A stretch of 33,088 bases of DNA from Verrucomicrobiota bacterium. Its GTDB lineage: Bacteria; Verrucomicrobiota; Verrucomicrobiia; Limisphaerales; UBA9464. Position 1 is the stretch's first letter. Every line of letters begins with the position of its first letter. Shown here piece by piece: positions 10,301 through 33,000 of this stretch. Location of the stretch: the NCBI GenBank assembly GCA_947471985.1, contig CANIZL010000079.1:1-33088 (forward strand). Direction: 5' to 3'. Both the position numbers and the translations under genes were made by a program. The notes below the pieces were generated by a model, which was given only the letters and a program-made list of their open reading frames with translations, had not been told where the DNA came from and did not search any database.

Positions 10301-11092
10301 CTGCACATCCGCGGTGCCGTCGCCATCCGTACCGAACACCAGTCCCGTTGAGAAAACCGAATTGGCCTTGGCCGTATCGCGCCAGCGGTACGCCGTCACG
10401 GCATCCGTCACCGGCTTGATGTTTTCCTGCGTGTACTCCGCCCCGGGCATAATACCGAACCAGCAGCCCTGCACCTTGGCATTCTTGGCCTCCTTCACCA
10501 AGGCCACGCCATAGATGCTGGGATCCGCCGTGTTACCGGCTGCGTAGTGGCCGATGAATCCCAGGCCCCGCACCTTGAAACCGTCGCCCTGATACACCAC
10601 CAAAATGCCATTCTCGCCGTCGCCGTAGCCATTGTTATCGCTGCTATCCCCATAGAGATGACCCAGGATACGCGTCGATCGCGTCAAGATCAGATCCGGT
10701 TCATTCGAGTCCGGGCTCGGGAGCGTGTCCACTCCGGACGAATCCAGCACGACGCCAATCACCGCATTGTTGCCACCCAGGATGCCGTTGCTGTTGGGCT
10801 TCGATCCCGGCTGTGAGTAGCCATCAATGCTGACATTGTTGGCCGTGATCACCGGATAGCCACCAATGGGCGTCACAATCACGTGCGGTCCAGCCCCAGG
10901 CAGATTGAATTGAATGACGTCGCCGTCCGCCAACTGGGAAATCGCCTGTTTCAGCGACGTTTGCCCAGCCGGTGGTGCGTCATTGTTGGGAGTCGTGACC
11001 ACGATATTCTTGGCTTCCAGCGCAAGGCCGGTCGAGAGCAGGAATATCGCTGCCATCGTTGGTTTGAGTGAGGGAATATACTGACGTTTCAT
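7304..11092 (-). CDS. Large secreted beta-helix-like protein with C-terminal CHRD domain
   Basis: A 1262-aa exported protein. A Sec signal occupies about residues 1-27 (MKRQYIPSLKPTMAAIFLLS, then an ALEAK cleavage region). Residues 30-480 look like a parallel beta-helix of the CSLREA/polymorphic outer-membrane type, with recurrent NNVSIDGYSQPG, VQGCWFGI, VVAGNYFGVGIDG and IRRNTMINN segments. The middle (about 480-1050) is probably beta-rich, with VVEDRGHVLAAGDAVIATIF and similar strands; no family is recognised. Near 1080-1140 is a short module with ITWTGGTGPFLVQTSP, resembling one in the giant surface protein at the other end of the window. The last 115 residues form a CHRD domain (FKAHLDAAQEPN, ASHIHNGAVG, YFNIHTTKFGGGEIRGQI). 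Role in adhesion or extracellular matrix is inference. No sorting tail such as PEP-CTERM is seen. Start ATG at 11092 begins the signal peptide; the Shine-Dalgarno is weak. Confidence 0.88.
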   Translation of the reverse strand: MKRQYIPSLKPTMAAIFLLSTGLALEAKNIVVTTPNNDAPPAGQTSLKQAISQLADGDVIQFNLPGAGPHVIVTPIGGYPVITANNVSIDGYSQPGSKPNSNGILGGNNAVIGVVLDSSGVDTLPSPDSNEPDLILTRSTRILGHLYGDSSDNNGYGDGENGILVVYQGDGFKVRGLGFIGHYAAGNTADPSIYGVALVKEAKNAKVQGCWFGIMPGAEYTQENIKPVTDAVTAYRWRDTAKANSVFSTGLVFGTDGDGTADVQEFNVVVGTHVALGLEAGDVRISGNYINVFPDGLTFVNVETLQDAYLAVPNGGNDTIEFMENGRDTANTLIGTNGDNKSDGNERNIIAHPNYKHAIEFYGADTANGGRTATNTVVAGNYFGVGIDGVTAQAELTVKLPNLIGTSGGDYRVGSNGDGVSDDIEGNLIVNTPGLQILEGTLPAVIRRNTMINNAFDGFPFADGSGGRTYATYFANAVADPAAGAIPAITSITAGIMTGTLPVPSASGTYTKSVVDVYVVDTKSADKGVILPGRYAGSFVDNGSGDLDAAANKFRVDLRGMKVAPDDKVVIAVTYTAAAAGTPGANSLTGPLSPSAVADIPVLVPGSVESVGLTRIVPDKPIIVPQNDALGNWEPYISVLGTSTFLIEGSTFADGFDATDGKQRYVVALQPTDGKPGKTVEGFYADNKTPYKGPINASRQNGNPGRVAGDRRPGATRYIVGAEASPHTLSEFGSDNRWTLGFDRLSDGRYGTVQTYNLDTTTLVPTPIMKAADSSNGRLTSGTAAGSQISRFGGDVAGLDNGNFVSVVEDRGHVLAAGDAVIATIFAADGTIVKDAWVVANGDIWANVASYQGGFAVRCKPQDGAATRVIYLFDNAGNLKNTIAQTSSGASYDNGRGDGTRIAGHINSPYIFLFGQPAGSTVMKVAAWDTRNPDRVALFDASEPAFGGGFDRANLAVDALNRITVAWVSKPDGYEQQQVAARVLALNGDTMTITALTPSFLAFVNQAKTGDIRSVGMSVAMTTKQICIAAKGEINLQNKPANGATVNLNTGGPLKEINFYTVFSHPSPQDDPTPSASAKPIVVTATRQAQDVTITWTGGTGPFLVQTSPVLGTWIDTVTTADRTVTLPLVGGAGYIRVLDGATKTVQVFKAHLDAAQEPNKPASTATGAGMAIIEGLKLTYYVSYEGLTTGLTASHIHNGAVGVAGPVSIGFTPLVGSFSGIISGTATMTADQKAAIVSGGSYFNIHTTKFGGGEIRGQILP

Positions 11093-16666: not shown

Positions 16667-19552
16667 CTATTTTCGCTGCGCCCGGCGTTTCGCTTCGAGC
16701 AGTCGGCTCGTCACGCCGCCCCGCGGATCGGCGGGAGGTGGCGCGTCAGCGACCCCGGACGGAGGCGGCGGGGCGGTGGTCCCTGCCCCGGCGTTATCCG
16801 CGGGAGCCGTGGGGGCCTGCTTCGGCCGGAAAAGCTCCGCGGCTGGCACCACCGGCACGACCACGCCATCCCCGCCCTCCGCGGTCTTGGCTTCGCGCAC
16901 CCGGCCCTTCGCCGCCAGGAGGGCGCCCACATTCTCCTGCGACTCCACCCCTTTGCGCAGGTCGCCGAAGCCCAGCCGCCGCCGCACCCGGGCAAACCAA
17001 TTCGCCCATTCCTCCCGATCGAAATCCACCCGGCGTACGCCCACATCCAGGACAAACAAAATAACAAACCAACGGAACAGTCCTTCCCAGAGATCCACCG
17101 GCTGGAACGTCTTCTGACGTCCGATTAAAAACGGATTATCCTTTCCCGGTTCCAACCAGCGGCCGCCACTGAGTTCCGCCAATCGGCGCAGGAGGCTGAG
17201 ATTGGGTGCGCTCGCATTGAATTCCGGCGAGTAGTTCACGCTGGCCCCAAGCACCTGGGATCCGCGAACGCCACCCTTGTCGTCCAGATCCTGCAAATTC
17301 ATCAAGTACGCACCGACCTCCTTGGTATCAAACTTCGCCTCGTAGCGGCCCGGCCCGGTTTGCTCCAGTACGACATCCTGGCGGACACCTTTCGGACTCA
17401 CCACGGCCGTACGAAGTTTGAGGAAGTTCCGAAAGTTTCCTTCCCGATCCAAGGCCTCCACGGCGACGTGCCCAACGCCGTTCTCGACATTAACCTCAGT
17501 ATTGAATTCCGCGGCATCCACCCGGCGCAGCGCCCATTTGGCGGTCTGCGACCAGAACTGCCGGTACTTCTCCCACCCCATCCAGTCCTGCGCCCACTTG
17601 CTGCGCGCATCGCTCGTGAACGCCACCGCGCGGCCCAGACCATATTGCCAATGTGCCAGAATGGGATCGCCCTTCTCGGAAACGATCGGCACCTCGGCCC
17701 GGGGCTTCGCCGTCGCCGCGACATATCCCCGAAGCGTGGGAAATTCCCCGGCGCCGATGCCCCGGATCAGTTCGCTCCCGCCGGTCACCTGCGGTTTGAA
17801 CGGTTCCTCAAAGATCGCGGACTTCAGGATCACCGCCGCCTCCTTGATGAAAATCTGGGGGAGCATCGCAGCCGATTTCACATCGTAAAAACGCCCCTTC
17901 CCCTGTTCGGCGATTTTGATCATGGAATCCGGCATGACGTGCCCGCCGATCATGACAGTGCTGACCGTCACCCGGGCCGACACCAAATCCCGCATCAGGG
18001 CATCGGTCGGAGCCCCCGGATCCCCGTCGCTAAACACAATCATGTGTTTCAGATTCGCCGTGGATTTCTTGAGTCCGTCATGCCCCATCTGCATGAGATT
18101 CTGAAAGGACGGCAGATCCCCCTGATTCATCCCGGCGATGGTGTTGGCGATCGCCTTCTTGTTGGTGACCTTCTGCAGCGGCACCAACCAGCGATCCGTG
18201 CCATCCCACAGCAGCACACCCAATTCGTCCTGCGGGCCGAGCGAATCCAGCGCGGCGATGGCCACTTCCCGGCTCACCTGGTTGCCGTTGCCAAATTCCA
18301 TGCCGTGCATCACCAGCACCAGGGCGCCACTGGGCAGGACCTTTTTGGAACTCAGCTCCATATCCAACGGCAACGTCGCCTCCAGCGGGGTATTGCGATA
18401 GCCACCCGCCGCATAGGAATTATCGCCGCCGATGCAGACCAACCCGATCCCGAAATCACGCACCGCGGATTCCAGCAACCGCATCCGATCCTGCCCCAAA
18501 TCCCCAGCGGCAATATTGGAGAGGAAGATCGCGTCGTAACTCTGCAGTTCCGCCAGTGAATCGGGAACCACGGTGACATCCTTCAGCACCACCTCCACGT
18601 TCGCCGACCGCAAGGCACCCACGAGGTTCGCGTCCTCCGCGGGTTGAGCCGACACCAGCAGGATCCGCGGATCCCCCCGCACACTGGCAAATCCCGCCGC
18701 CCGATTATTTTGGGCTACCGTGTCGCCCGCGACCTCCAACTGCACGTCATACCCGTAAAAACCCGGATCACTCAAGGTTTGGGGAAACGAGAAAAGATTT
18801 TTCCCCGCGTCGAGTTTCACGGTCTGCGAGCCCAGCAATTGCCCATTGCGATACAGCCGCACCGTGCCGTTCTGCACCTTGTCAGAAAGCGCAAAAATCT
18901 TGGCCTCAAAGGTCTGTCCCTTCTTGAGATTCGCGGGTATCTGGAGTTTCTGGACCGAGACGTCGCCCCCCTTTTCGGTACCCAACGGCACCACATCCAC
19001 CGTGACCCCCAAGGGGCGCGCGGCGATCACGGCGGCCGCGGCATCGCCGACGTTCTCATTGCCGTCGGAAAAGATCACCAGCTTCTTCTGGCCATTCTCG
19101 GGAAATGCGGCCGTGCCCAATCGGATGGCACCGGCGAGGTCCGTCCGCTCACCACCCACGATCGCCTGGATCTTGATGGCCGAGGTGGTCTCCCGCACCT
19201 CCGTCTCCAAAGCGGCGTCCGAACCGAAGACCAGGAAGCCGGATTTATCCTCCCGCTTCTTTCCTTCGGCCATGGTATTGGCCATTTCACGGGCCTGTTC
19301 CTGCTGCGGCGAAGGAACGGAATCCGAACGATCCAGCAGGAAAAACGTATTCATGCCTTCGCGCGGACGTTTCCACTGAATCCCCGCGACCCCCAAGAGC
19401 AGCAGCAGGAGCACGAACAACCGCAGGCCCGTCGACACCCAACGACGCCACGGCGCCAGGGACGCGTCCGAGCGCCAGACGAGCCAGAGCGTCCACGCCA
19501 CTGCCGGGATTAGCAGCAGGAGCCATTCGGGATGCGTGAACTGGAAGCGCAT
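16667..19552 (-). CDS. Large membrane-anchored VWA/GATase1-like protein
   Basis: A 961-aa protein. Two N-terminal TM helices (about 10-26 and 42-59) precede a VWA domain (about 68-220) with a MIDAS motif DRSDS (D74, S76, S78) and SDGNENVGDA. A beta-sandwich-like segment (about 225-320) follows, then a glutamine-amidotransferase-like domain (about 320-435, VCIGGDNSYAAGGYRNTPLE). A second VWA-like region (about 435-590) has IVFSDGDPG but an eroded first MIDAS element (VMHGMEFGNG). A further beta-rich region, a C-terminal TM (about 850-870) and a Pro-rich cytoplasmic tail end the protein. Such proteins occur in MoxR-DUF58-BatA loci of Planctomycetota and Verrucomicrobiota; the function is unknown but probably extracytoplasmic protein or metal-complex assembly. 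Its start is 15 bp after the stop of the permease-NHL gene, the last gene of the operon before the hairpin. Confidence 0.88.
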   Translation of the reverse strand: MRFQFTHPEWLLLLIPAVAWTLWLVWRSDASLAPWRRWVSTGLRLFVLLLLLLGVAGIQWKRPREGMNTFFLLDRSDSVPSPQQEQAREMANTMAEGKKREDKSGFLVFGSDAALETEVRETTSAIKIQAIVGGERTDLAGAIRLGTAAFPENGQKKLVIFSDGNENVGDAAAAVIAARPLGVTVDVVPLGTEKGGDVSVQKLQIPANLKKGQTFEAKIFALSDKVQNGTVRLYRNGQLLGSQTVKLDAGKNLFSFPQTLSDPGFYGYDVQLEVAGDTVAQNNRAAGFASVRGDPRILLVSAQPAEDANLVGALRSANVEVVLKDVTVVPDSLAELQSYDAIFLSNIAAGDLGQDRMRLLESAVRDFGIGLVCIGGDNSYAAGGYRNTPLEATLPLDMELSSKKVLPSGALVLVMHGMEFGNGNQVSREVAIAALDSLGPQDELGVLLWDGTDRWLVPLQKVTNKKAIANTIAGMNQGDLPSFQNLMQMGHDGLKKSTANLKHMIVFSDGDPGAPTDALMRDLVSARVTVSTVMIGGHVMPDSMIKIAEQGKGRFYDVKSAAMLPQIFIKEAAVILKSAIFEEPFKPQVTGGSELIRGIGAGEFPTLRGYVAATAKPRAEVPIVSEKGDPILAHWQYGLGRAVAFTSDARSKWAQDWMGWEKYRQFWSQTAKWALRRVDAAEFNTEVNVENGVGHVAVEALDREGNFRNFLKLRTAVVSPKGVRQDVVLEQTGPGRYEAKFDTKEVGAYLMNLQDLDDKGGVRGSQVLGASVNYSPEFNASAPNLSLLRRLAELSGGRWLEPGKDNPFLIGRQKTFQPVDLWEGLFRWFVILFVLDVGVRRVDFDREEWANWFARVRRRLGFGDLRKGVESQENVGALLAAKGRVREAKTAEGGDGVVVPVVPAAELFRPKQAPTAPADNAGAGTTAPPPPSGVADAPPPADPRGGVTSRLLEAKRRAQRK

Positions 19553-19567
19553 GAAATGAATATGAAG

Positions 19568-22144
19568 TTACCGCTGCAGCGCCGCCGGTTCCGCATCGCT
19601 GACGCGGCCATTGGCGGGATCGCTGGGATTAAATCCGTGCCCACCCGCTGTCGCCACCAACGGAGCCGCCCGCCGAAGCAGTTTCTGCACGCGATGATTC
19701 TGTGAATCGGCAACATAGAGATTACCCCGGGAATCAAAGCAGATGGCCCAGGGATTCGCGAACTCACCCGGTTCCCGGCCCGCCCGGCCGACGGTTTCCA
19801 ACAGCTGATCGGCCGCATCGTAAATACTCACGCGACTGTTGCCGAATTCGCAGATGAATTGCCGCCCCATGGCGTCGACCCGGACATCATAGGGAAAACT
19901 AAAGGCTCCCGCTTCCGCCCCCGCATGCCCGTATTCGCGCACGAACTTTCCGGACCGATCAAAAATCTGGATCCGATGATTGCAGGAATCGGCCACATAG
20001 ACCAGATCGCCCGGACCGACGGCGATGCCCTCCGCTCGATTGAATTCCCCCGCCCCCTGCCCCGGCCGTCCCCAGGTCCCCACCAACTGGTACGGAGACA
20101 CAGCCGAGACTCCGGCGGCCGGCACGTGGGTAAGGTCCGCACTCACGCTGAATCTCTGCACCCGCTCCACGGTGGTATACTCCCCCAGAAAATATTCGCC
20201 CGCCGAATTCACGGCGACGCAGCGCGGCAGAATGAATTCGCCGATATTGGTGCCCCGACGCCCCCACTGGGCCACCAACTTGCCCTGCGGCGTGAAGTGA
20301 TTGACCCGCTGATAATGCGGCTCCACCACGAGGATGTTGCCCGCCGGATCCACGGACATTCCCTTGGCCTTGCCGATATCCGTCTGCGGCATCTGCCACT
20401 GCAAAAGAAAACGGCCGTCCGGACTGAACTTCTGAATGCGGCCAGTGATGTCGGCCACATAGAGATTGTCGTCCCGATCACACGCCACCGAGCGCGGTTT
20501 GTTAAACTGCCCCGGCGCCACCCCGCGCGATCCAACAATTCGGGCCGCAGCGAAATACTTCGACGTCAGCGGGCGATCCCCCGGCAACGCGGCGGAGCGA
20601 TCGGAACACCCGCCGAGCACCACCGCGCCGCAGCCGACGGCTAGACACCGCGAACGCCACCCGCTTTGGACGCGCGGATTGGAATCGATCTCCGGGGGCA
20701 GTCCCGGGCGCTGCGGCCGGACGCTCCAACGGGCCACTCCAAATCCGACCAGCGGCAGCAGGGCGATGCCCAACGTCACCAGGCACAACGCATTAACCTG
20801 GGCGGCGTGGCCGTAATGGAGCAGATTGAAAATTCGGAGGGCGAGAGTTTCACCGCCCGGAGGCTGCAACAGAACCAGCGTCTCGACATCCCAGAGACAC
20901 AGCAGATACACGGCATAGGCCATCGCCAGGATCGGTCCCGGCAACTGCGCCCAGGTGACCAAGCGAAAATGCGCCCAGCGCCCGGCGCCGAGCAGACGCG
21001 CCGTTTCGTCCAGCGCAGGATCCACGGTCTGCACCGCCGCCGATATGGCCCCCCAGGCAGGTGCCAGATACCGCAAGCCCAGCGCCAGCCAGACAATGCC
21101 AAAGCTCGAGTACCACCAGATCAATCCCGGCCGGTTCAAGGCCACAATCAAACCTACCGAGAGGAAGACTCCCGGGAGCAAAAACACCAGCCAGGCCCCG
21201 CGCGCGATCCACGAAAGAAATCCGGCACGGTTATGATCCCTCCGGCTCAGCCCGCGCCCGCGCCCGCGCCCGGCCAGGAGCAGCGCCATCGCCGGCAGCA
21301 AAACCGCCACCGCCGCGGCCGATAGAAAGGAATTACCGGCGGCCAGGCTCCCGGCGGCAAAGGCGCCGGGCAATTCCGTCCAGGTCCGCCGATGGATCAC
21401 CAATTGGCCCAACGGCAACGCCAACGAAGCCAGGACGACCAGGACGCTCAATCCGATCGTCACCGTTCGGCCGGTCCGGCCGATTCGCCGCGCCAGCAAG
21501 GCGGGTGGCACGGTGCTGGCTTCACGGCGCCACGCCACCTCCGGCGTGCGCCACAGCGCGGTCAGGAGCACCGGCAGAATCCACAACGGCCACGTGGCCG
21601 AAAGCGCGCCCCAAAGATCGAACTGGGTGTTATAGCGCAGCCAAAATTCCTCGGTGAACACCCGGACTTGAAAAAGTGTGGGCACCGTGAAATTCGCCAG
21701 CGCCAACGTCAGTGTCAGCACGGACGACAGTTTCAAGGCGGACCGAGCCGCCGGCCACAGCACCCAGCGCACCAGGGACCAACCCCGCAGATTCGGTTCA
21801 GCTTCCAGGACGATCGCTTCCAGTTTTCGCCACGCGCCCAACACCAGAAAGAGCGTCACCGGCCACAGCCCCAAGCCCAGCACCATCGCCGTGAGTGGCA
21901 ACATCGCGATGGCGGATGCTTCCGCTCCGATCGTCGAGCGCCAAGCGGCGGTGATTTCCAGCCAGCAGTTGGCCGGAAGAAAGGGTGGCAGCGCAAGAGT
22001 CACGGCGCCGGCAGCGCAACCCCAGCGACGCAGCGCAGGTCCCGCCGTGGCCACGGTCACCGCCATGGCCAAGCCCGCCAGCAGGGCAACCGCCCACGCA
22101 CCAATCGCCACCGCGAAGGAATGCCACCAGAGGGAGATATTCAT
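19568..22144 (-). CDS. ABC importer permease fused to a C-terminal NHL-repeat propeller
   Basis: An 858-aa protein with two parts. Residues 1-475 form a duplicated binding-protein-dependent permease of the FbpB/ThiP (ferric iron or thiamine) type. It has about 11-12 helices and two EAA-like cytoplasmic loops, near 112-135 (EAEPNLRGW to a Pro) and 379-404 (DETARLLGAGRWAHF). Residues 535-825 are an NHL beta-propeller of about six blades, with recurrent pairs such as DNLYVADITGRIQKF and LVYVADSCNHRIQIF. Between them lies a lipoprotein-signal-like segment (about 499-513, VVLGGC). This suggests the propeller descends from a separate lipoprotein and is outside the cytoplasm. The only near in-frame alternative start is a GTG at 20737. 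The ATG at 22144 overlaps the solute-binding gene stop by four bases. No ABC ATPase gene is in this window. Confidence 0.85.
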   Translation of the reverse strand: MNISLWWHSFAVAIGAWAVALLAGLAMAVTVATAGPALRRWGCAAGAVTLALPPFLPANCWLEITAAWRSTIGAEASAIAMLPLTAMVLGLGLWPVTLFLVLGAWRKLEAIVLEAEPNLRGWSLVRWVLWPAARSALKLSSVLTLTLALANFTVPTLFQVRVFTEEFWLRYNTQFDLWGALSATWPLWILPVLLTALWRTPEVAWRREASTVPPALLARRIGRTGRTVTIGLSVLVVLASLALPLGQLVIHRRTWTELPGAFAAGSLAAGNSFLSAAAVAVLLPAMALLLAGRGRGRGLSRRDHNRAGFLSWIARGAWLVFLLPGVFLSVGLIVALNRPGLIWWYSSFGIVWLALGLRYLAPAWGAISAAVQTVDPALDETARLLGAGRWAHFRLVTWAQLPGPILAMAYAVYLLCLWDVETLVLLQPPGGETLALRIFNLLHYGHAAQVNALCLVTLGIALLPLVGFGVARWSVRPQRPGLPPEIDSNPRVQSGWRSRCLAVGCGAVVLGGCSDRSAALPGDRPLTSKYFAAARIVGSRGVAPGQFNKPRSVACDRDDNLYVADITGRIQKFSPDGRFLLQWQMPQTDIGKAKGMSVDPAGNILVVEPHYQRVNHFTPQGKLVAQWGRRGTNIGEFILPRCVAVNSAGEYFLGEYTTVERVQRFSVSADLTHVPAAGVSAVSPYQLVGTWGRPGQGAGEFNRAEGIAVGPGDLVYVADSCNHRIQIFDRSGKFVREYGHAGAEAGAFSFPYDVRVDAMGRQFICEFGNSRVSIYDAADQLLETVGRAGREPGEFANPWAICFDSRGNLYVADSQNHRVQKLLRRAAPLVATAGGHGFNPSDPANGRVSDAEPAALQR

Positions 22145-23055
22145 GGGGCAAATATCCCCCTCAGTTCCTGTCCCGCGGCCGCAAAATCCCGCAGCATGTC
22201 GTCCCAGCGGGGCTCGACCGCCCACTCGGTCGGTGCTTCCAGTGCCCCGGCGGTGCGCAGTTTTTCCTGTACCCCGGCGGATTGCAGATACTGGAACAAT
22301 TGCTCGGCGGCCGACGCCCGGGGCGCTCCGTGAAGAATCGCCACGGTATTGCGCAGCCGCCAAAGCACCGGCCCGGGCAGTACCGGGAGGCCGTCGGCTT
22401 GAGCGGAAATAATATCATCGGAATCCGTCAAACCCACCCACGCTTCCCCGCGCGCCACCCGCCGCACCACGTGGGAATTTCCCTCTTCGAGAAACACCTG
22501 ATTCGCGGCCAGCGCCCGGCACCAGGCACGCCACGCGGTTTCTCCCCACTCGGCCCGCAATGCGGTCATATGCGTGGCCGTGGAACCAAACCAGGGCGCG
22601 GCCAGCGAAACCCGTCCCCGCAGCGCGGCATTGGTCAGCCCGGCGAGTCCAATATCCGCCAGCTCCGGCCGCTGCTTTCCCACGACCAAACGTCGGGAAC
22701 GTTGCCCAAAACCCGCCCAACCGTTGCTCGCCCGAAAGACCCCCAGCGCCGCCAGGCGCCGCGTCTGAAACTCTTCGTTGCCCCAGAAAACATCGGCCGC
22801 CGGGTGTTCCCGTTCCGTCAGGAGCCGATTCGCCAGCCCCACGGTTTTCACTGCTTCGCTGTCAAATACCGCCCGCACGCCAATACCTGTGACCGCAGTG
22901 AAGGCGGCAAAGATGGGCTCGGCGTAGGCCTGATCCTGGGCGCAATACACCACGACGTCCGGGCGGGCGCCGCACCCCGCACCGATGGACGCGAGTCCGA
23001 TCAATGCCAACAGCCAGCACCCGATCCAACCGCGAAGTCCGGGAGGCCGTTTCAT
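22141..23055 (-). CDS. Extracellular solute-binding protein of a ferric-type ABC importer
   Basis: A 304-aa exported protein of the FbpA/AfuA-like periplasmic binding class. An N-terminal hydrophobic signal ends in ASIGAGC (Cys28), a non-canonical lipobox. The mature part begins with VVVYCAQDQAYAEPIFAAF and AVTGIGVRAVFDSEAVKT, and continues with HPAADVFWGNEEFQTRRLAALG, which are the typical opening strands and hinge of this class. These proteins bind Fe3+, phosphonate or polyol substrates and pass them to a permease; the ligand is not evident. The ATG at 23055 starts the signal and overlaps the upstream VWA stop by four bases (ATGA). Another ATGA overlap joins it to the permease gene, so all three are translationally coupled. 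Confidence 0.87.
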   Translation of the reverse strand: MKRPPGLRGWIGCWLLALIGLASIGAGCGARPDVVVYCAQDQAYAEPIFAAFTAVTGIGVRAVFDSEAVKTVGLANRLLTEREHPAADVFWGNEEFQTRRLAALGVFRASNGWAGFGQRSRRLVVGKQRPELADIGLAGLTNAALRGRVSLAAPWFGSTATHMTALRAEWGETAWRAWCRALAANQVFLEEGNSHVVRRVARGEAWVGLTDSDDIISAQADGLPVLPGPVLWRLRNTVAILHGAPRASAAEQLFQYLQSAGVQEKLRTAGALEAPTEWAVEPRWDDMLRDFAAAGQELRGIFAP

Positions 23056-24920
23056 GCGGTGCGGCGGTGGTACCACCACCATTCCAGCATCATCACGGCC
23101 AGGGCTCCGAGGGCGAACCACCGCCAGTATTCCAGATCGGCCCGTTTCTGGCGGGTCGCGGTCACCTCCGTGTACTTGCCCACCTGCAAACTGTCTCGCG
23201 GACGAATATTACTCTCCTGTGAATCCAGCAGGTTGGAGGCAAAGGTCAGTCGATTGGTCCCCAGCGTGACCCGGTACACGCCCTGCCGGGAGGTTTCTCC
23301 AAACACCAGTTCGCGGGTTTGGGCATCCAGTTTTACCACCCGCTCGCTGCCGTCAGGTCGGGTCAGCTTCGCCGAGGTCAATCCCGTGCCCCCAAAATCA
23401 CCCAACGGCAGCCGGATCGCCTCGCCGGCCCGCAGTGAAAACAGCTCCGCCTTGGCCGTGGCGGGGTTCAACCAATCGATGGCGTTGGCAACAAAAATCG
23501 GGAATCCAATGCGCAGCGGCCAGGTGCTCTGCAGGGCATCAAATCCCACCCAGACAATCCGCTGACGGCCGAGTTCACCGGCCACAATCAGGGGACTCTG
23601 CGGCGAATCCACCAGCGATACACCCCAGGTGGGCGGTTTCACCGCCATGGCCCGGGCGATCTGAACATTGTCAAACGTCACAAACCGCAGCAGCGGATGC
23701 GTGTTGCGCCAATCCACGATCGCCGGATTCTCGATTTCGCCGACCGGCGCCGCGAACCAGTTGGTCGCGGCCACATTCAGTGCGAGCACATTGCCTTCCG
23801 GCCAGCGGGTCGGCGCCACATCGTCGAGGACATACACATCCGCCTTCGTCGCCAAATCCGTATAGTCGCTCACCACCGCCAGCTCGAGATTTGGCGCGGC
23901 CGCCTTCAGCGCTTTCTCCAAAAAACGATTCCCCTTCGTCACCAGCAGCACATGGACCGGCTGCGGCAATAGACTGACCAGCCGGGCTTCATCGTCCGCC
24001 GGCAGATCATCCTTTCCGGTAAGCCGCAGGGTGAAGACCCCGTCACGGTCCTGCGCGGTCACCAACGCCACCGGCGTCGTGTTGGTGGGTCCCAGCGACA
24101 AGTTGCGCGTCTCCCGCAATTCCCCGTCGAAGAGCAACTCAACCCGAACCTCGCGCGCCGCGGAGGAGTAATTCGCAATCGCGGCAAATACCGCCCGCTG
24201 CGCCGGATTTTCCGGATTCGCCTTCACATCCATCGCCACGATGCCCGCGTTTTCCGACCGCACCCCGACGCGGTGATACACCAGGCGCAATTCCTTGGCC
24301 GCAAATTCCGAGAGATCGATGCCGGCACCGTCCGAAAACAGATGCACCTCGGCATCCGCCCGATCGCGAGTCAGGGTTTCCGCCACCCGCAGCGCCTCGG
24401 CCAGACGGGTGGTGGAGTCGGTCACCTGCGCCTCCGTGATCGCCCGCCGGAGAGCGGCCTTTTCCGAGGTCGCACTCTGCCGCACTTCCGCATTGGCTCC
24501 GGCCACCATCACCAGCATTTGCTGATTCCGCTCCCCAAAGCCCGTCTTAAGGCCGTCCACGAGCTTCAAAGCTCCGGCCCGGGCCGCTTCAAAGCGCGAG
24601 GGTGTAACGTCCGTGGATTGCATGGAGGCCGAGGCATCCAGGATGAGCACCTGCAATCCGGCTTCGCCCGCCTGACCGGAAAAATAGGGTCGGGTAAGGG
24701 CCAGAATCATCAACGCCAGCAGGAGCAGTTGAAACCACAGCAGCCAGTTGCGGCGCAGACGCTGCAGCGGCGCACTCGCCTGGGTTTCCGCCAGAAACCG
24801 CTGCCAAAGCAAAGTGCTCGGCACGACTCGCACGACCCGCTTGCGCTTGAGCAGATAAAACAGCACCACGACCGGCAGCGTGGCTGCAAAGGCAAAGGCG
24901 GCCGGGGCCAAAAAATTCAT
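23052..24920 (-). CDS. BatA-like membrane protein with VWA domain
   Basis: A 622-aa protein. The N-terminus (MNFLAPAAFAFAATLPVVVL, then RRKRVVRV-type basic loop and a second TM at about 58-78) matches the BatA/aerotolerance-regulator N-terminal double-TM domain. A VWA domain follows (about 88-215) with an intact MIDAS start LILDASASM (D95, S97, S99). The remaining 400 residues are predicted beta-rich and GATase-like in part (VYVLDDVAPTRWPEG; PLIVAGELGRQRIVWVGFD). A C-terminal TM (about 598-616) ends the protein. Such proteins are partners of MoxR ATPases, whose substrates are usually VWA proteins. Start ATG 24920 is 28 bp after the DUF58 stop. Together these features support a membrane-anchored arm of the MoxR system. 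Confidence 0.9.
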   Translation of the reverse strand: MNFLAPAAFAFAATLPVVVLFYLLKRKRVVRVVPSTLLWQRFLAETQASAPLQRLRRNWLLWFQLLLLALMILALTRPYFSGQAGEAGLQVLILDASASMQSTDVTPSRFEAARAGALKLVDGLKTGFGERNQQMLVMVAGANAEVRQSATSEKAALRRAITEAQVTDSTTRLAEALRVAETLTRDRADAEVHLFSDGAGIDLSEFAAKELRLVYHRVGVRSENAGIVAMDVKANPENPAQRAVFAAIANYSSAAREVRVELLFDGELRETRNLSLGPTNTTPVALVTAQDRDGVFTLRLTGKDDLPADDEARLVSLLPQPVHVLLVTKGNRFLEKALKAAAPNLELAVVSDYTDLATKADVYVLDDVAPTRWPEGNVLALNVAATNWFAAPVGEIENPAIVDWRNTHPLLRFVTFDNVQIARAMAVKPPTWGVSLVDSPQSPLIVAGELGRQRIVWVGFDALQSTWPLRIGFPIFVANAIDWLNPATAKAELFSLRAGEAIRLPLGDFGGTGLTSAKLTRPDGSERVVKLDAQTRELVFGETSRQGVYRVTLGTNRLTFASNLLDSQESNIRPRDSLQVGKYTEVTATRQKRADLEYWRWFALGALAVMMLEWWWYHRRTA

Positions 24921-24948: not shown

Positions 24949-25857
24949 TCACGCCCACACCTCCTGGGCGCGCAATTGTTTCAAAAGCAGAACGCTCAGA
25001 TCGGTGGCTGAACTCACACTGAAGAACCGCACCCCACGCGCGCGACAGTATTCCCGCAGGCGTTGCACGTAATTCGCGACACTCTGTTGATACGCCGCCA
25101 GACGGAATTTCCCGAAGGTCACTTCCTGTTCCACCCCGGTCTCGGAATCAATCAAACGAAGATCCCCGAACGAGGTGGGTTGAATTTCCTCCGGCGCGAG
25201 AATTTGAACCGCGTGTACTTGGAAGCCGCGCCCGATCAGCGCCGTGAGCCCCGCCTCGTAACCCGCGGGATCCAGAAAATCACTGAGCACAATGGCGACC
25301 CCGGTCTGCCGCGCTTCCATGGCGCCCCGCTTGAGGGCCGCATTGAAATCCGCGGCTCCACCGGCCGTCAGCGCCGCGAGGTTCTGAAAATAGCCCATGG
25401 AGGCCTTCTTGCCGCGCACGGCCCGCAACGCGCCCCGTACCGCGGTCTCCCGGGCTGCCGTTTCACCGGTGGCCTCGGGAAAGGCCACCACGGATACGCG
25501 ATCAAAGCCGCAGAGCGCCACGTATCCCACCGCGGCGGCCAATTGTCGGGCCAGTAGAAACTTGCTGGGCTCGCCAAAGGTCATGCTGGCGCTGGCATCG
25601 AGAAAAATCCGCACCGGCAATTCCCGCTCTTCTTCGTAGAGTTTCAGGAACAAACGATCCAGCCGGCCGTAGAGGTTCCAGTCGAGATAGCGGAGATCGT
25701 CGCCACTGACGTAATTACGGTGATCGGCGAACTCGACGCTCAAACCGCGAGCCCGGCTGCGGCGCTCGCCTTTCAGCGAACTCTTGGCCCGACGCGCGGA
25801 CAACAACTGGAGTTGCTCCAATCGTCGCAGCAGGTCCACCGTGATCAGCCCACTCAT
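24949..25857 (-). CDS. DUF58-domain protein of the MoxR system
   Basis: A 302-aa soluble protein of the DUF58/VWA-like family. The signature region is VEFADHRNYVSGDDLRYLDW at about 41-60, followed by LYEEERELPVRIFLDASASM at about 73-92 with a complete MIDAS-like DxSxS (D88, S90 and the following S). The C-terminal half is the VWA-fold remainder with AIVLSDFLDP. DUF58 proteins are nearly always encoded next to MoxR ATPases and act with them, probably in protein or metal-complex maturation. The ATG at 25857 gives the family's usual N-terminus; a longer frame extends upstream but begins inside the spacer. The gene starts 39 bp after the MoxR stop. Confidence 0.94.
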   Translation of the reverse strand: MSGLITVDLLRRLEQLQLLSARRAKSSLKGERRSRARGLSVEFADHRNYVSGDDLRYLDWNLYGRLDRLFLKLYEEERELPVRIFLDASASMTFGEPSKFLLARQLAAAVGYVALCGFDRVSVVAFPEATGETAARETAVRGALRAVRGKKASMGYFQNLAALTAGGAADFNAALKRGAMEARQTGVAIVLSDFLDPAGYEAGLTALIGRGFQVHAVQILAPEEIQPTSFGDLRLIDSETGVEQEVTFGKFRLAAYQQSVANYVQRLREYCRARGVRFFSVSSATDLSVLLLKQLRAQEVWA

Positions 25858-25896
25858 GATTGCATTCCGGATCGGCCACCCAACCGGCACCCACCG

Positions 25897-26898
25897 TCAC
25901 GCCGAAACCAAGCCCGCATCCCGGGGTACATCGCGCAGGATCTGGGCAATGATCTGATCCGTCGTGACCCCTTCCGCCTCCGCCTCAAAGTTCGGAATGA
26001 GACGATGCCGGAAGGTCGGAGCGGCCACCGCGGCGATGTCTTCAAAACTGACATTGAATCGTCCCTGCGTCAGCGCCCGCACCTTCCCCGCCAAAGTGAG
26101 CACCTGAGCCGCCCGCGGACTGCTGCCGAAGCGCAGAAACTGATTGGTGATGGGCGCCGCCGTGTCGGTCTTGGGATGCGTGGCCAGCACAAGGCGGACG
26201 GCGTAATCCTTGACCGCGGTGGCGATGGGCACCTGTCGCACCATCTTTTGCAGGGCGAGCAATTCCTCGCCGGAGACCACTTTCTGCGGGATTACTTTTT
26301 CACCTTCCGTGGTGCGGTTCAGAATCTCCGTTAATTCCTCCCGCGTTGGATACCCCACCAGCAGCTTGAAGAAAAAGCGATCCAATTGCGCTTCCGGCAG
26401 CGGGTACGTTCCTTCCTGGTCAATGGGATTCTGGGTGGCGAGAACGAAGAACGGCAGCGGCAGCGGCCGCACCGCACCGCCCGCCGTCACCTGACGTTCC
26501 TGCATCGCTTCCAACATCGCCGACTGGGTCTTCGGCGTCGCCCGGTTGATCTCGTCCGCCAGTACGATGTGCGCAAAAACCGGTCCCTTTTGGAATTGAA
26601 ACTCCCGCCGCCCGCCCGGGGTTTCCATCACCAGGTTGGTGCCCAGAATGTCGGCCGGCATTAGATCCGGAGTGAATTGAACGCGGCTGAAGCTCAGATC
26701 CAGCACCTCGCCCAAGGTTCGCACCAAGAGGGTTTTGCCCAGCCCCGGAACGCCTTCCAGGAGCACATGCCCGCCCCCGAAGATGGCGGTCAACGTACCG
26801 TCGACGATGGCATCCTGACCCACCATGACCTTGCCAATTTCTGCTCGGGCACTGGCATAGACGGTGCGAAACTGGGCGATGGCTTCTTCGGTGGTCAT
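25897..26898 (-). CDS. MoxR-family AAA+ ATPase
   Basis: A 333-aa AAA+ ATPase of the MoxR subfamily. Walker A is GVPGLGKT at 49-56. Walker B with the adjacent acidic residues is IVLADEINRATPKTQS at about 111-126 (D115, E116), and a sensor-1 segment ATQNPIDQEGTYPLPEAQLDR follows. Substrates of this subfamily are usually VWA proteins such as those encoded in the same operon, and known members assist cofactor insertion (for example methanol dehydrogenase or nitric oxide reductase) or stress resistance. The ATG at 26898 is chosen because the protein then starts with the family helix MTTEEAIAQF; an upstream in-frame start lies in the terminator. First gene of the operon. Confidence 0.96.
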   Translation of the reverse strand: MTTEEAIAQFRTVYASARAEIGKVMVGQDAIVDGTLTAIFGGGHVLLEGVPGLGKTLLVRTLGEVLDLSFSRVQFTPDLMPADILGTNLVMETPGGRREFQFQKGPVFAHIVLADEINRATPKTQSAMLEAMQERQVTAGGAVRPLPLPFFVLATQNPIDQEGTYPLPEAQLDRFFFKLLVGYPTREELTEILNRTTEGEKVIPQKVVSGEELLALQKMVRQVPIATAVKDYAVRLVLATHPKTDTAAPITNQFLRFGSSPRAAQVLTLAGKVRALTQGRFNVSFEDIAAVAAPTFRHRLIPNFEAEAEGVTTDQIIAQILRDVPRDAGLVSA

Positions 26899-27020
26899 GG
26901 CGTTAGCATTGCTGTTCGGATTGGACCGGCAACTCCCGGTTTCGTTCCAGCGAATCCTCCAAGACTGCCCGGTGCGCGCCCCCTTTGGCAAGCGGCATGC
27001 TCCAAACCGTCGGACAAATT

Positions 27021-27050
27021 GGCCGCGCCCCACCACCGTGGGTCGCGGCC
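27021..27050 (-). terminator. Strong hairpin terminator of the giant surface-protein gene
   Basis: Arms GGCCGCGCCCCAC (27021-27033) and GTGGGTCGCGGCC (27038-27050) pair over 13 positions with one mismatch and a four-base loop. The hairpin begins eight bases after the TAG of the giant surface protein and is followed on the minus strand by AATTTG. This is close to a classical rho-independent terminator except for a short T stretch. It separates that gene from the MoxR operon; the rest of the 159-bp spacer shows no gene and no convincing promoter. Confidence 0.6.
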
Positions 27051-27057
27051 CCGGCTT

Positions 27058-30000
27058 CTACGGGCGCTCCAGGGTTCCCTGCGCGCGACTGCGACCCAGC
27101 GTCGCATTGAGCGCATCCCACAATTGCACCGTGAACGTCCGCTGCGATCCCGGAACCGCAGTGCCAAACGTCGTTATGGTCAGCGTCTTTTGCGTCTCGC
27201 CCGGAGCGAAGGTCACCGTCGGACGCGGCTTGCGCGCGAGGCGATAGAACCAGGCCCCGTTGGCCGCCGGCAGGGTCACCTGTTGGGAACCGTCCGTGGT
27301 CTCGGGCAGTTGGGACGCCGTCTTCCAACCCGCCGGATCCCCCAAGCCCTCGCGCACCTGCAACAGCGGCACGCCCGGTTTGCGGAACCAGGATAGGCGC
27401 ACGCCGCCGTCCACCACCTCAATGCTCAACGGCTCCCCAATGAGGAACGGTGGCACCGTCAGGTCCGGTACTCCCAGATAGTCCGGCCCCGCTTGGGCGG
27501 TTCCATTCTCGGTTCCAAAGTCCACCACGATCGGCAGCGTTCCCGGATGGTCCAGGCTCACCTTGAAGGTCAGAGGATAGACGCCCGAATTCCCCACGGC
27601 GCCCCGCGCATCGGCAATGCTCACCACCGGCAGCGAGGCCGATCGCACCACCACCCGTTGACTGCACGTGGCCTTGTTGCCCGCGTGATCCGTCACCGTC
27701 CAAACCACGGTGTGGGTCCCCACCGGCAATATGGCAGGTGCGTCATTGGTGATGGAGGCGACGCCGCAGCTGTCCGCGGCGACCGGCGCGCCCAGGTCCA
27801 CCAAACTCGCACCAGCGGATCCGGGGGCGGCGTCAATGACCACCGGCAGCGGACAGGTGATCGTCGGCGGGAGCGCGTCCGTTACCCGGATCTTCTGTGA
27901 AGCCGTCGCGGTGTTGCCGCAGCTGTCGACCGCTTTCCACGTCCGGGTCAGCACAAAGACCCCCAATTTCCCGTCCGTGATGGTTTCCTGGAAGGTCACC
28001 GCGACGCTTCCCGAGCACAGGTCCGTCGCCGTCACGTCCGGCAGGAACGGCAGATTGTTGCACGACGCCGTGGTGTCTGCCGGTACGCCGATTAACACCG
28101 GCGGTGTAGTGTCCACCAGAGTGATGCGTTGGGACCGATTGGTCACATTACCGCAACCATCCACGGCGATCCACCTGCGGGTAACGATCCGCTGGCAATT
28201 CACCACGTTGGTGGTGGTCAGGACGCTCGGAGTGATGATCCCGTCGCAGGCATCGGTGAACACGGGGGCGATAAATGCCGGATTGGCCGGGCATTCCACG
28301 ATTCCGTCGGGGCCCTGCGGCTTCGTCACCGCCGGCGGTTGCGTGTCCTTGACCGTGATCGTCTGGGTCCGGTTGGTGGCATTGCCGCACGCGTCAGTCG
28401 CCCGCCAGGTCCGCGTAATCACGACATCACAATCGATCTGATTCGTGGTGGTGACGATGATCGGCAGGATCAGGCCTCCGCAGGCATCGGTGAATACCGG
28501 GGCCGTAAAGACCGGCGGGGCCGGGCATTCGACGATTCCGTCAGGCCCTTGCGATTGAGTGACCGCCGGCGGAGTGGTATCCATCACCGTGATCCTCTGG
28601 CTCCGGTTGGTGGCGTTTCCGCACGCGTCCACCGCAGTCCAGGTACGGGTAATCACTTTCCGACAGTCCGGACCATTCGTTGTCGTCAAGACGCTGGGCG
28701 TAATCACGCCGTCGCAGGCATCCGTGAAAAGCGGTGCGGTAAAGACCGGCACCTCCGGGCATTCCACCGTGCGATCCGGCCCTTGCGCCTGAATCACCCT
28801 CGGGGGCGCGGTATCCACCACCGTGATCGTCTGCGTCCGGTTCGTCGCATTGCCACAGCTGTCGGTCGCAATCCAGGTTCGAATAATCACCCGGCTGCAG
28901 CCCGCCGCATTGGTCGTGGTCAAGATGCTCGGATTAATGATCCCGTCGCACGCATCCAGGAACACCGGGGCCGTAAAGATCGGCGCTGCCGGACATTCCA
29001 CCGTGCCATCGGGGCCCTGCGATTTGGAAACCGTTGGCGGAGTGGTATCCACCACGGTGATGGTTTGAGTCCGATTGGTGGTGTTACCGCAGGAATCCGC
29101 CACCCGCCACGTGCGGGCAATGACCCGGCGACAGCCCAGCTGATTTGTCGTGGTCGTCACCGTCGGCGTCAGCACATCCCCGCAAGTGCCCGAGAAGCCC
29201 GGCGCCGTGAACACCGGAACCGTTGGACATTCCACCGTGGCGTCCGGCCCCTGTGGGGTCGTTACCAACAGGACGGAATCGTCGTCCAGAATCGTCCCCA
29301 CACCGATCGCATCCGCGATCTGGGCATTCACCGGATTGCTCAAGCGAACGGCAAAGGTCTCGTCCAATTCATCCAGCGTGTCGCCCTTCACCTGCACCGA
29401 CACAGTCTGAGTGAGTTGTCCCGGAGCGAAGGTGAGCACGCCGCTTCGGGGGGTGAAATCCCCCGGGGCGACCGCCGTGCCATTTTCCGTGGCATAGCCG
29501 ACGGTAATGGTCTGCGCGCTGCCGAGGGAAAGGGTGACCACAAATTCGGCATTGGTGGTGCCGGTATTCCCTTCCTTCACCACCACGTCCCCAATTTTGA
29601 TCTGGGGTACGGGCAGATCATTGAGAATGGTCCCGGTGGCCCGGCCACGACCCAGCTTCGCGTTCACCGGATTGGCCAACTGAACGAAGAAGGTTCGATC
29701 CGTGTCGTGCACCGTCTTGCCGTAGACGAGGATCGTGATCGACTTCCGGGTCTCGCCCGGATTGAACGTGACGCTGGCGCGACCGCGCCGGGCCAGGCGA
29801 TAGAACTTCTGGCCCGTGCCCACCGTCAGCGTCAGGTGATGCTCCGTGCCCACCGTCACCGGCAGCTGTTCCACGAGCTTCCAGCCGTTGACATCCAAAT
29901 CATCCCGCACCTGCAGGACGGTGGATCCGTCGAGACCCGACCAGGACAGCTCGAGTTGATCACCCACCTGCGCGATCTTCAACGGCACCGCGGGCGGTCC

Positions 30001-33000
30001 GGACACACTGGAAATTCCAATGTAATCGCGACCAGCCACCGCCGTGCCGTCCTCGGTGTAGAATTCCACCACCACCGGCAGGCGGCTGGGCACATCCATG
30101 GAGACCGTGATGGCAAACGGTTTGACGCCCGCCGAGCCGCTCACGTCGCTGATGTCCACGACATTGATCACCGGAACCTGTGTCGACTCCACAATCACCA
30201 ATTGCGTGCAAGTCGCCTGATTGCCGCTGCGGTCGGTTACCGTCCAGGTCACCACGTTCGTTCCCACCGGGAAACTGGCGGGCGCATTGTTGGCCACTGA
30301 GGCGACACTGCAGTTATCCGCGACCTGCGGAGTACCCAACACCACCCCACTCGCTGTCTGGACCCCGGAGGCCAGGGTCACTGTCACCGTCGGCGGACAG
30401 GTGATCGTCGGCAGCACCCGGTCGAGGATTGTCACCCTCTGGGTGCCCGTCGCGGTATTGCCGCACGCATCGGTCGCCGTCCAGGTGCGGAGCACCGTGA
30501 GACCCGTGGCCAGATCGCCGCTCCGGGTCTCGCTGAACACCACAGGCACAACACCCGAACAGGCATCCAGTGCCGTCACCGTCGGAGCGGACGGCAGCGA
30601 ATCACAGACCAGCGTCAGATTGGCGGGAACTCCCGACAGAACCGGCGGTGTGGTATCCCGCACCGTAATCGCCTGAGTGCGGTTGGTCGCATTGCCGCAG
30701 GTATCCACCACACTCCAGGTCCGGGCAATGACCCGGGCACAATTGACGATATTGGTCGTCGTTGTCGCCACCGGAGTGAGCACTCCATCACACGCGTCGG
30801 TAAACACCGGGGCACTGAAGACCGGGACCGCCGGGCACTCGATGGTTCCGTCAGGACCTTGCGCCGTCGTCACCGCCGGACGCGTCGTGTCCTGCAGCGT
30901 CAGCCGCTGGGTCCGGTTGGTCGAATTGCCGCAACTGTCCGATACAATCCACGTCCGGGTGACCACTCGCGTACAACCCACCCCGTTGGTGACGGTCAAA
31001 ATACTGGGATTCAGCACCCCGTCGCAGGCGTCCGTAAAGACCGGCGCCGTAAAGACCGGCACGGCGGGACATTCGACGATCGCGTCGGCCCCCTGTGCCG
31101 TCGTCACCGCCGGCGGGGTCGTATCCCGGATCGTAATCGTCTGCGACCGGTTGGTCGCGTTGCCGCAGGAATCGGCCACGCTCCAGGTCCGCACGATTTC
31201 CCGGGTGCAATTGACGGTGTTCGTGGTGGTAACCACCAGCGGCGTCAAGACGCCGTCACACGCATCCGTAAACACGGGCGCCGTGAACACCGGCACCGCC
31301 GGACATTCCAGGGTCCGATTCGAACCTTGCGCCGCTGTCACCGCCGGCGGAGTCGTGTCGTTGATGACGATATTCTGCGTGCACTCCGACACATTCTGAC
31401 AGCCATCCGTCACCCGGTAAGTCCGGCTGATGGTGCGCGGGCAGGTCCCGTTGGAAACATCGCCCACAAACGAGAAGGTCAGGCCGAGGCCGCAGTTATC
31501 CCGCGCGACGCCACCCGCGGTCACAAAGGCCGCCAGGTTCGCATAAGGCGCCGGCACCGTGGTTCCGCATTCAATGCTGATCGTGCCCGGGCAGGCCAGC
31601 GTCGGCGGCGGAGTGGCCGAGAAGCGGATGGCTTGCGTGCATTCCGTCTGATTGCCACAGCGGTCCACCAGCCGATACGTCCGGTTGACCGTCTTCGGAC
31701 ACGTTCCAATGGTCACATCACCCACATGCACCAGCGTCAAAGCGGCGCTGCAGTTATCCGTGGCCAGCCCACCCGCGGCGAGGAACGCCGTTAGATCCGC
31801 GTACGGCGCCGGAACCGCCGCCCCGCATTGCAGGGCAATTGGCGACGGACAGACCAGCGTCGGCGGCGTCGTGTCGCTGATCCGAATCACTTGAACGGCC
31901 GTACTGCTGCGACCGCATCCGTCGGTCACCGTGTAGGTTCGCGTGACCACCAGCGGGCAGCCCGCCACCGCCACGTCGGCGGAGGTGACCGCCAAGGCCG
32001 CGTCGCTCGAACACGCATCGCTGATGTTCAAGCCGAGGGCCTCCAGCGCCGCCACCGAGGCCACGGGCGCCGGCGCTGCCGCCGCCGTGCAGCCTTCGAT
32101 CGCAATTGCAGGAAGGACACCCGCGATGCTCGGCGGAGTCGTATCCACCACGATGATGGTCTGCGTCCGATTCGTGGAATTCCCACACGCATCGGCAGCA
32201 ATCCACCGACGGACCACCACCTTGGTGCAACCCACCACGTTGGTGGTGGTCAGGACGCTGGGCGTAATAAGCCCACTGCAGGCGTCGGTGAACACCGGTG
32301 CGGTAAACACTGGCGCATTGGGACATTCCACGGTCCCGTCCGGTCCCTGTGCCGTGGTCACTGCCGGCGGCACCGTGTCGGTCACCGTGATCGTTTGGAC
32401 GGCCGAACTGCTGTTATTGCAGGCATCGGTCACCGTATAGGTGCGCGTGATCACCAGCGGACAACCACCAGCAGCCACGTCCCCGTGAGTCACAATCAGA
32501 GCGGCATCCGCCGTACAGGCGTCACTGATTCCCAAGCCCAAGGCCTCGAGGGCGGCCACGGTGGTCGCCGCCGCGGGCGTGGCAGCCGCACTGCAACCCT
32601 GCACCTGAATCGCCGGCAGCACCCCGGTAATGACCGGCGGTACGGTATCCCGCACGTTAATAATCTGGGTCGCGGTGCTGCGGTTGTTGCACGCATCCGC
32701 CACCGAGTAGGTGCGGGTAATCACCAACGGACAGCCACTTTGTACACTGTCGGCATGGGTCACCACCAGCTCGACGTCCGCCGTGCAGGCGTCGCTGATA
32801 TCCAATCCGAGCGCTTCCAACCCCGCCACCGTGGACGCGGCCGCCACGTTCGCCGAGCACCCCTCGATCGTGCTCGCGGGTAGGATTCCCACGATCACCG
32901 GCGGAGTGGTGTCCCGAACCCGGAGTGTCTGCACCACCGAACTGCGGTTGTTGCAGGCGTCGGTAACCGCATAGGTGCGGGTGATCACCACCGGGCACGT

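Follow-up and report, generated by a model that had tools for sequence, protein, structure and literature searches.

Does a single gene encode both an ABC permease and an NHL propeller, and what is the role of the lipoprotein-like segment that separates them? The question is raised by a minus-strand gene at 19,568-22,144 of the window, by which we mean the whole stretch of 33,088 nucleotides that was analysed. Its ATG lies at 22,144 and is followed by 858 codons up to the stop, and the plus strand of the same interval contains several stop codons, so that the coding frame is that of the minus strand. According to the open reading frame, Pfam and a structure model, the 858-residue product consists of a permease, an internal lipoprotein signal and an NHL propeller. 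These parts and the operon genes described below are all encoded on the minus strand.

The N-terminal part, residues 1-475 (20,720-22,144), is an FbpB-type ABC permease with two repeats. Residues 3-474 match 9j4r, the solved iron ABC permease of FbpBC from Thermus thermophilus, with an E value of 2.3e-5, which becomes 8.7e-30 when the family profile is used. A Foldseek comparison of the permease part with the same structure gave a TM-score of 0.72 of the target, in line with a two-repeat permease fold. The NHL beta-propeller occupies residues 531-824 (19,673-20,554) and was recognized both by Pfam (NHL, E 1.8e-29) and by Foldseek (TMt 0.90 to Thin NHL 6xg7). Both domains had been proposed in a preliminary description of this DNA, as an FbpB/ThiP-type permease up to about residue 475 and a C-terminal NHL propeller, and these assignments were confirmed. 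In the structure model (60 rows, mean pLDDT 87.9), a helix at residues 447-475 closes the permease and is followed by a basic loop of low confidence, a 19-residue helix at 494-512, Cys513 and the propeller strands at 531-824.

The permease-NHL fusion is real and conserved. Of 40 regions fetched from relatives, 32 encode both parts in a single frame; the other eight comprised one region with the parts out of frame (G009, L051), five with the propeller only and two with the permease only, some of the single-part regions being due to contig ends. A one-frame fusion was also present in all 80 best-ranked of 259 named loci, a ranking that favours long matches and hence fused forms, and many of these loci lie on contigs already represented among the 40 fetched regions. 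By title, 70 of the 80 loci belong to Verrucomicrobia in some form, Pedosphaera or Limisphaerales and four to a "bacterium", and six are titled Akkermansia muciniphila, which we take to be mislabelled. Of 293 genomes surveyed within the order, at least 150 gave a match with an E value of 1e-60 or lower, whether the parts are fused or split. Among 288 genomes drawn from the phylum, seven matched at 1e-25, including the genome studied here, and the other six matches cover the propeller part alone. The window represents one contig of a draft assembly. The preliminary description had raised a lost stop codon or a sequencing error as alternatives to the true fusion that it claimed. The claim of a true fusion held, and an assembly or sequencing artefact, or a stop codon recently lost in this genome, is refuted by the recurrence of the same fused frame in relatives from many families, among them G104 and G129, whose genomes each consist of a single contig.

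Relatives in which the two parts are separated had been named beforehand as a sign against a true fusion, and such relatives do exist: the parts are apart in G009, G029, G035, G072 and G112 and in additional f2 family members. In the propeller tree, however, the split G009, G029, G072 and G112 are nested within fused clades, and they are thus read from their placement as what look like later fissions. The split f2 group (genus g10) branches inside the order in a tree whose root is almost unsupported (0.095), and its history is less clear. Sequence alignments were prepared from 31 of the 40 fetched regions (A1) and from 59 of the 80 named loci (A2), with 21 loci excluded from the latter, several of them with long linkers. 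Long linkers in which the frame is still kept were seen in L249, L253, L259, L260, L270, L298 and L304, several of them with repeat-like text, e.g., KSQTPNAKQTPNTKHQTP and GAWCF.

The segment between the two domains ends in VVLGGC, with the cysteine at residue 513 (20,606-20,608), the predicted site of lipidation and cleavage. Cys513 was invariant in 32 of 32 rows based on A1 and in 60 of 60 aligned rows, in which Gly512 was conserved at 97%, and no other residue from G445 to F531 shares this invariance within the interval. The surrounding linker is the least conserved stretch ahead of the C-terminal tail, with a mean conservation of 0.22, whereas the permease reaches 0.54 and the propeller 0.68 (60 rows), and the stretch from residue 453 to the cysteine occurs in 24 different lengths of 32-71 residues. 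Despite this variation, the composition follows that of a lipoprotein signal. A basic linker, or n-region, at residues 476-493 (20,666-20,719; low model confidence) precedes an h-region helix at 494-512 (20,609-20,665), in which VVLGG stands directly before the cysteine. Lysine or arginine occurs at positions -30 to -13 in every one of the 60 rows, with an average of 3.3 K/R and 0.2 D/E, and charge is absent at -12 to -1 in 57 of them. A relaxed signal pattern with charge rules was matched at Cys513 in 56 of the 60 rows, whereas elsewhere in the same proteins it gave 26 hits in all, with at most four at any one residue number. In the 80 named loci, a cysteine after eight uncharged residues was found without exception no more than 50 residues ahead of the propeller match, and serine was the commonest residue at +2 (36 of 75 scanned rows). 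The basic n-region, the uncharged h-region and the cysteine of a lipoprotein are all present, at about residues 476-513 and not at the N-terminus. An Lsp gene is present in the same genome. The preliminary description had recognized the lipoprotein-like segment correctly and had considered it a relic. Since Cys513 is kept in all 60 rows across linkers of differing length and sequence, the lipobox is no relic and would represent a functional signal.

The gene lies within an operon of the order MoxR - DUF58 - BatA - SBP - permease::NHL - VWA. In the window, the MoxR AAA+ ATPase (25,897-27,036; AAA_3, E 2.3e-62) is followed by a DUF58 protein (24,949-25,890; Pfam), a BatA/VWA membrane protein (23,052-24,920; Pfam) and a solute-binding protein (22,141-23,121), which overlaps the fused gene by four bases; a VWA/GATase1-like membrane protein (16,667-19,552; Pfam) starts 15 bases after the fused gene. 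Among the 80 named loci, in which many contigs are short, MoxR was found in 36, DUF58 in 52, BatA in 64, the SBP in 68 and the VWA protein in 74. Outside the operon, the window encodes a giant protein of at least 2008 residues with HYR_4C, HYR and Calx-beta domains (27,058-33,084, ending a few bases from the contig end), a 1262-residue protein with a C-terminal CHRD domain (7,304-11,092) and an IS200-like transposase (PF01797; 5,728-6,696).

The solute-binding protein has a lipoprotein-like N-terminus and an FbpA fold (PF13531, E 6.9e-13; model pLDDT 91.4; Foldseek to 7w3w, E 2.0e-19), and is the only match in its genome. The relatives of this fold bind, by their titles, iron, sugar phosphates, 2-aminoethylphosphonate or pyridoxal phosphate. 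In a profile alignment, the tyrosine pair of the ferric proteins is aligned to Asp-Asp, and iron is therefore a doubtful substrate as judged from the sequence. In an alignment of 51 of 63 extracted relatives (A3), D233, D235 and D236 were invariant in 52 rows.

How the fusion may have come about is indicated by three genomes outside the order. In G512, overlapping genes are arranged as SBP - permease - ATPase - NHL lipoprotein - VWA - MoxR - DUF58 - BatA. In G300, the operon was put together from two contigs, one with permease - ATPase - NHL - VWA and the other with MoxR - DUF58 - BatA - SBP. In G531, SBP and permease are followed by a single open frame that encodes both ATPase and NHL (L324:6370-8251), where PF00005 and NHL in one protein represent a second, different fusion onto an internal lipoprotein signal of the same kind. 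The outgroup permeases appear very divergent. Those of G512 and G531 gave no Pfam hit; by profile, the former aligns over 27-448 with an E value of 4.1e-7, the latter is collinear but weak (E 0.004, probability 8%), and the match of the G300 permease spans 43 residues. The operon ATPases of the outgroups do not form one clade, as G512 and G531 stand together in the ATPase tree and G300 apart. From the order permease-ATPase-NHL in these genomes, the fusion probably arose via loss of the ATPase gene: starting from an ancestral operon SBP-permease-ATPase-NHL-VWA, loss of the middle gene would have joined the permease to the NHL lipoprotein.

We hypothesize that the gene encodes a natural polyprotein, from which a permease and a lipoprotein are released by Lsp at the internal signal, and which originated by loss of the ATPase gene. 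We consider this reading probable; lipidation, cleavage and the evolutionary direction are what we infer in it. The ribosome would make one chain, of which the FbpB-type permease inserts into the membrane. The basic linker would stay in the cytoplasm and the next hydrophobic stretch would act as an internal type II signal that exports the propeller, after which Cys513 would be lipidated by Lgt and probably cut by Lsp. Two products would result: the permease, extended at its C-terminus by one short helix, and an NHL propeller detached from it and anchored by a lipid. The propeller is thus probably located outside, as the preliminary description had suggested; as a guess, it might be anchored at the membrane to dock the binding protein or the VWA proteins. 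In the titles and abstract openings of the open-access literature, we found no description of the operon, of a permease-NHL fusion or of an internal lipobox in a permease, nor any earlier case of a polytopic protein with a type II signal inside it, so that the ability of the cell to cut there is assumed.

The chain might also never be cut, with the hydrophobic stretch spanning the membrane as one more helix and holding the propeller to the permease on the outside, and with Cys513 at most lipidated. The modelled helix of 19 residues would suit such a role, permanent tethering would make sense of the fusion, and the strict lipobox [LVI][ASTVIG][GAS]C was found in only 31 of the 60 rows, although LGGC of the window fits it. 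The distance from the last K/R to the cysteine ranges from 11 to 28 residues, and the 12 of 60 rows with 18 or more could have plain extra membrane helices. However, the median of 15 is short for a membrane-spanning anchor, the stretch is no longer than 13 residues in 19 of the 60 rows, and a plain helix needs no invariant cysteine preceded by glycine. The stand-alone relatives of the propeller also have ordinary lipoprotein-like signals with a lipobox-like cysteine. A chain that stays intact is accordingly unlikely in our judgement, yet deserves to be kept in mind. Far less probable is that internal initiation, e.g., at the GTG at 20,737, yields the propeller as a product of its own, and that the long chain is unimportant. 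Such a GTG does exist, at residue 470, and separate permease and propeller genes occur in some relatives. A loose scan of 75 rows, in which one row was lost by its pattern, detected some start codon in 73 rows and a start with a Shine-Dalgarno sequence in 21. With a stricter motif and 990 control windows, an ATG with a Shine-Dalgarno sequence ahead of Cys513 was found in 0 of 60 rows, and any start with a Shine-Dalgarno sequence in 4 of 60 (7%) versus 9% of the controls; ATG alone occurred in 20 of 60 rows versus 36% of the control windows. The linkers, moreover, are of many lengths, yet all are in frame. Internal initiation, which the preliminary description had listed as an alternative, thus found no support in these comparisons.

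A different kind of alternative concerns the function of the permease, and is compatible with the polyprotein reading: the permease may no longer transport, and together with the binding protein and the propeller may form a receptor that reports ligand to the MoxR/VWA proteins. The operon partners are conserved, and no ABC ATPase was found inside the operon when four ATPases served as tblastn queries against 123 sequences (1.94 Mb including duplicates, many of the sequences being the same contigs); matches were located only outside it, in L072/L299 (one contig) and L304. Motif scans would miss degenerate signatures of the G512 and G531 type, which were used as queries in the tblastn search. 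Against loss of transport stand the two EAA-type ATPase-coupling loops, one in each permease half, which are both retained: loop 1 at about residues 112-133 (21,746-21,811), with E114 and G121 at 90% or more and P131 invariant in 60 aligned rows, and loop 2 at about 378-400 (20,945-21,013), with G386 and P399 at 90% or more. Loop 1 is the more degenerate, and L056 is poor in loop 2. With its coupling loops retained, the permease probably works with an ATPase whose gene lies outside the operon. The genome itself has a solitary MalK-type ATPase adjoining leuC (C82:15747-16721). A solitary MalK/UgpC-type ATPase gene adjoining leuC, with no permease nearby, was observed at L077:7745-8722. Co-occurrence likewise speaks against loss of transport: orphan MalK-type ATPases of clade A or B, as read by eye on sampled matches and with clade A unstable between trees, were present in 40 of 44 operon-bearing genomes versus 1 of 14 operon-lacking ones (Fisher 9.7e-9, a value that ignores kinship, six of the 14 being one genus). 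In one tree, the ATPases of the operon-lacking G002, G046 and G057 fall within clade A as long branches, and a looser count that includes them gives 4 of 14 (Fisher 1.4e-5, kinship likewise ignored). Most orphan ATPases had no EAA-motif permease in the fetched flank, with L173, L178 and L193 as exceptions; several adjoin other membrane ORFs, and 8 of the 44 genomes with the operon lack ATPases with TOBE_2. It was also considered that the orphan ATPases are the displaced operon ATPase, and this was rejected, as the outgroup operon ATPases share at most 41% identity with any other sequence and fall outside clades A and B. This lack of closeness fits the receptor as well, which we nevertheless regard as improbable, though not to be dismissed. 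For the comprehensive statement, i.e., a polyprotein that is cut by Lsp, arose from loss of the ATPase gene and was kept across the order, with a permease that either borrows its ATPase or is part of an ATPase-free MoxR/VWA receptor, we see the chances as evenly divided.

If true, the polyprotein would provide a clear example of how a lipoprotein can be derived from an internal part of a membrane protein. Signal-peptide predictors that are designed for N-terminal signals would be expected to pass over a lipoprotein signal in such a position. The conserved operon joins an ATPase-less importer of the FbpA/FbpB type to MoxR/VWA proteins of poorly understood function, and the outgroups show how the fusion probably arose.

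MoxR, VWA and propeller are also found together in the MoxR-vWA-beta-propeller ternary systems, reported from Verrucomicrobia among others (PMC7159879). In the systems described there, the propeller is present in the VWA protein and in the third component, and the MoxR P-loop is often GXXXTAKS. By Pfam at E 0.1, no propeller was detected in the three VWA/DUF58 proteins of the window, where the propeller is instead fused to the permease and predicted to be exported. The P-loop of the window MoxR is GVPGLGKT, and PF20030 (bpMoxR) scores 46 bits against a cut-off of 27, with AAA_3 far better at 209 bits. Because the VWA protein carries a propeller there and not here, the operon is not a MoxR-propeller system of the kind described in that paper. 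The stand-alone NHL lipoproteins of Verrucomicrobiota (G300, G485, G512, G514 and G493) resemble the C-terminal part in a propeller that is 36-45% identical, in the lipobox-like cysteine before it and, in G300, G512 and G514, in an adjoining VWA gene. They differ in being separate genes with an N-terminal signal, preceded by an ATPase gene in G300 and G512. With FbpB of FbpBC from Thermus thermophilus (9j4r), the gene shares the two-repeat architecture over residues 3-474, the coupling loops and an adjoining gene for an FbpA-fold binding protein, the latter set apart from FbpA-type proteins by Asp-Asp at the tyrosine pair. Unlike FbpBC, the gene adds a C-terminal lipoprotein signal and a propeller, and its operon has no ATPase gene. 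A comparable arrangement is known from the cytochrome b/c1 polyprotein (fbcH) of Bradyrhizobium, in which a polytopic membrane protein continues into an internal signal peptide and then a domain that is exported, the chain being cut after synthesis. The internal signal after a polytopic protein is common to both, whereas the fbcH product is a haem protein cut by signal peptidase I and the signal here is that of a lipoprotein.
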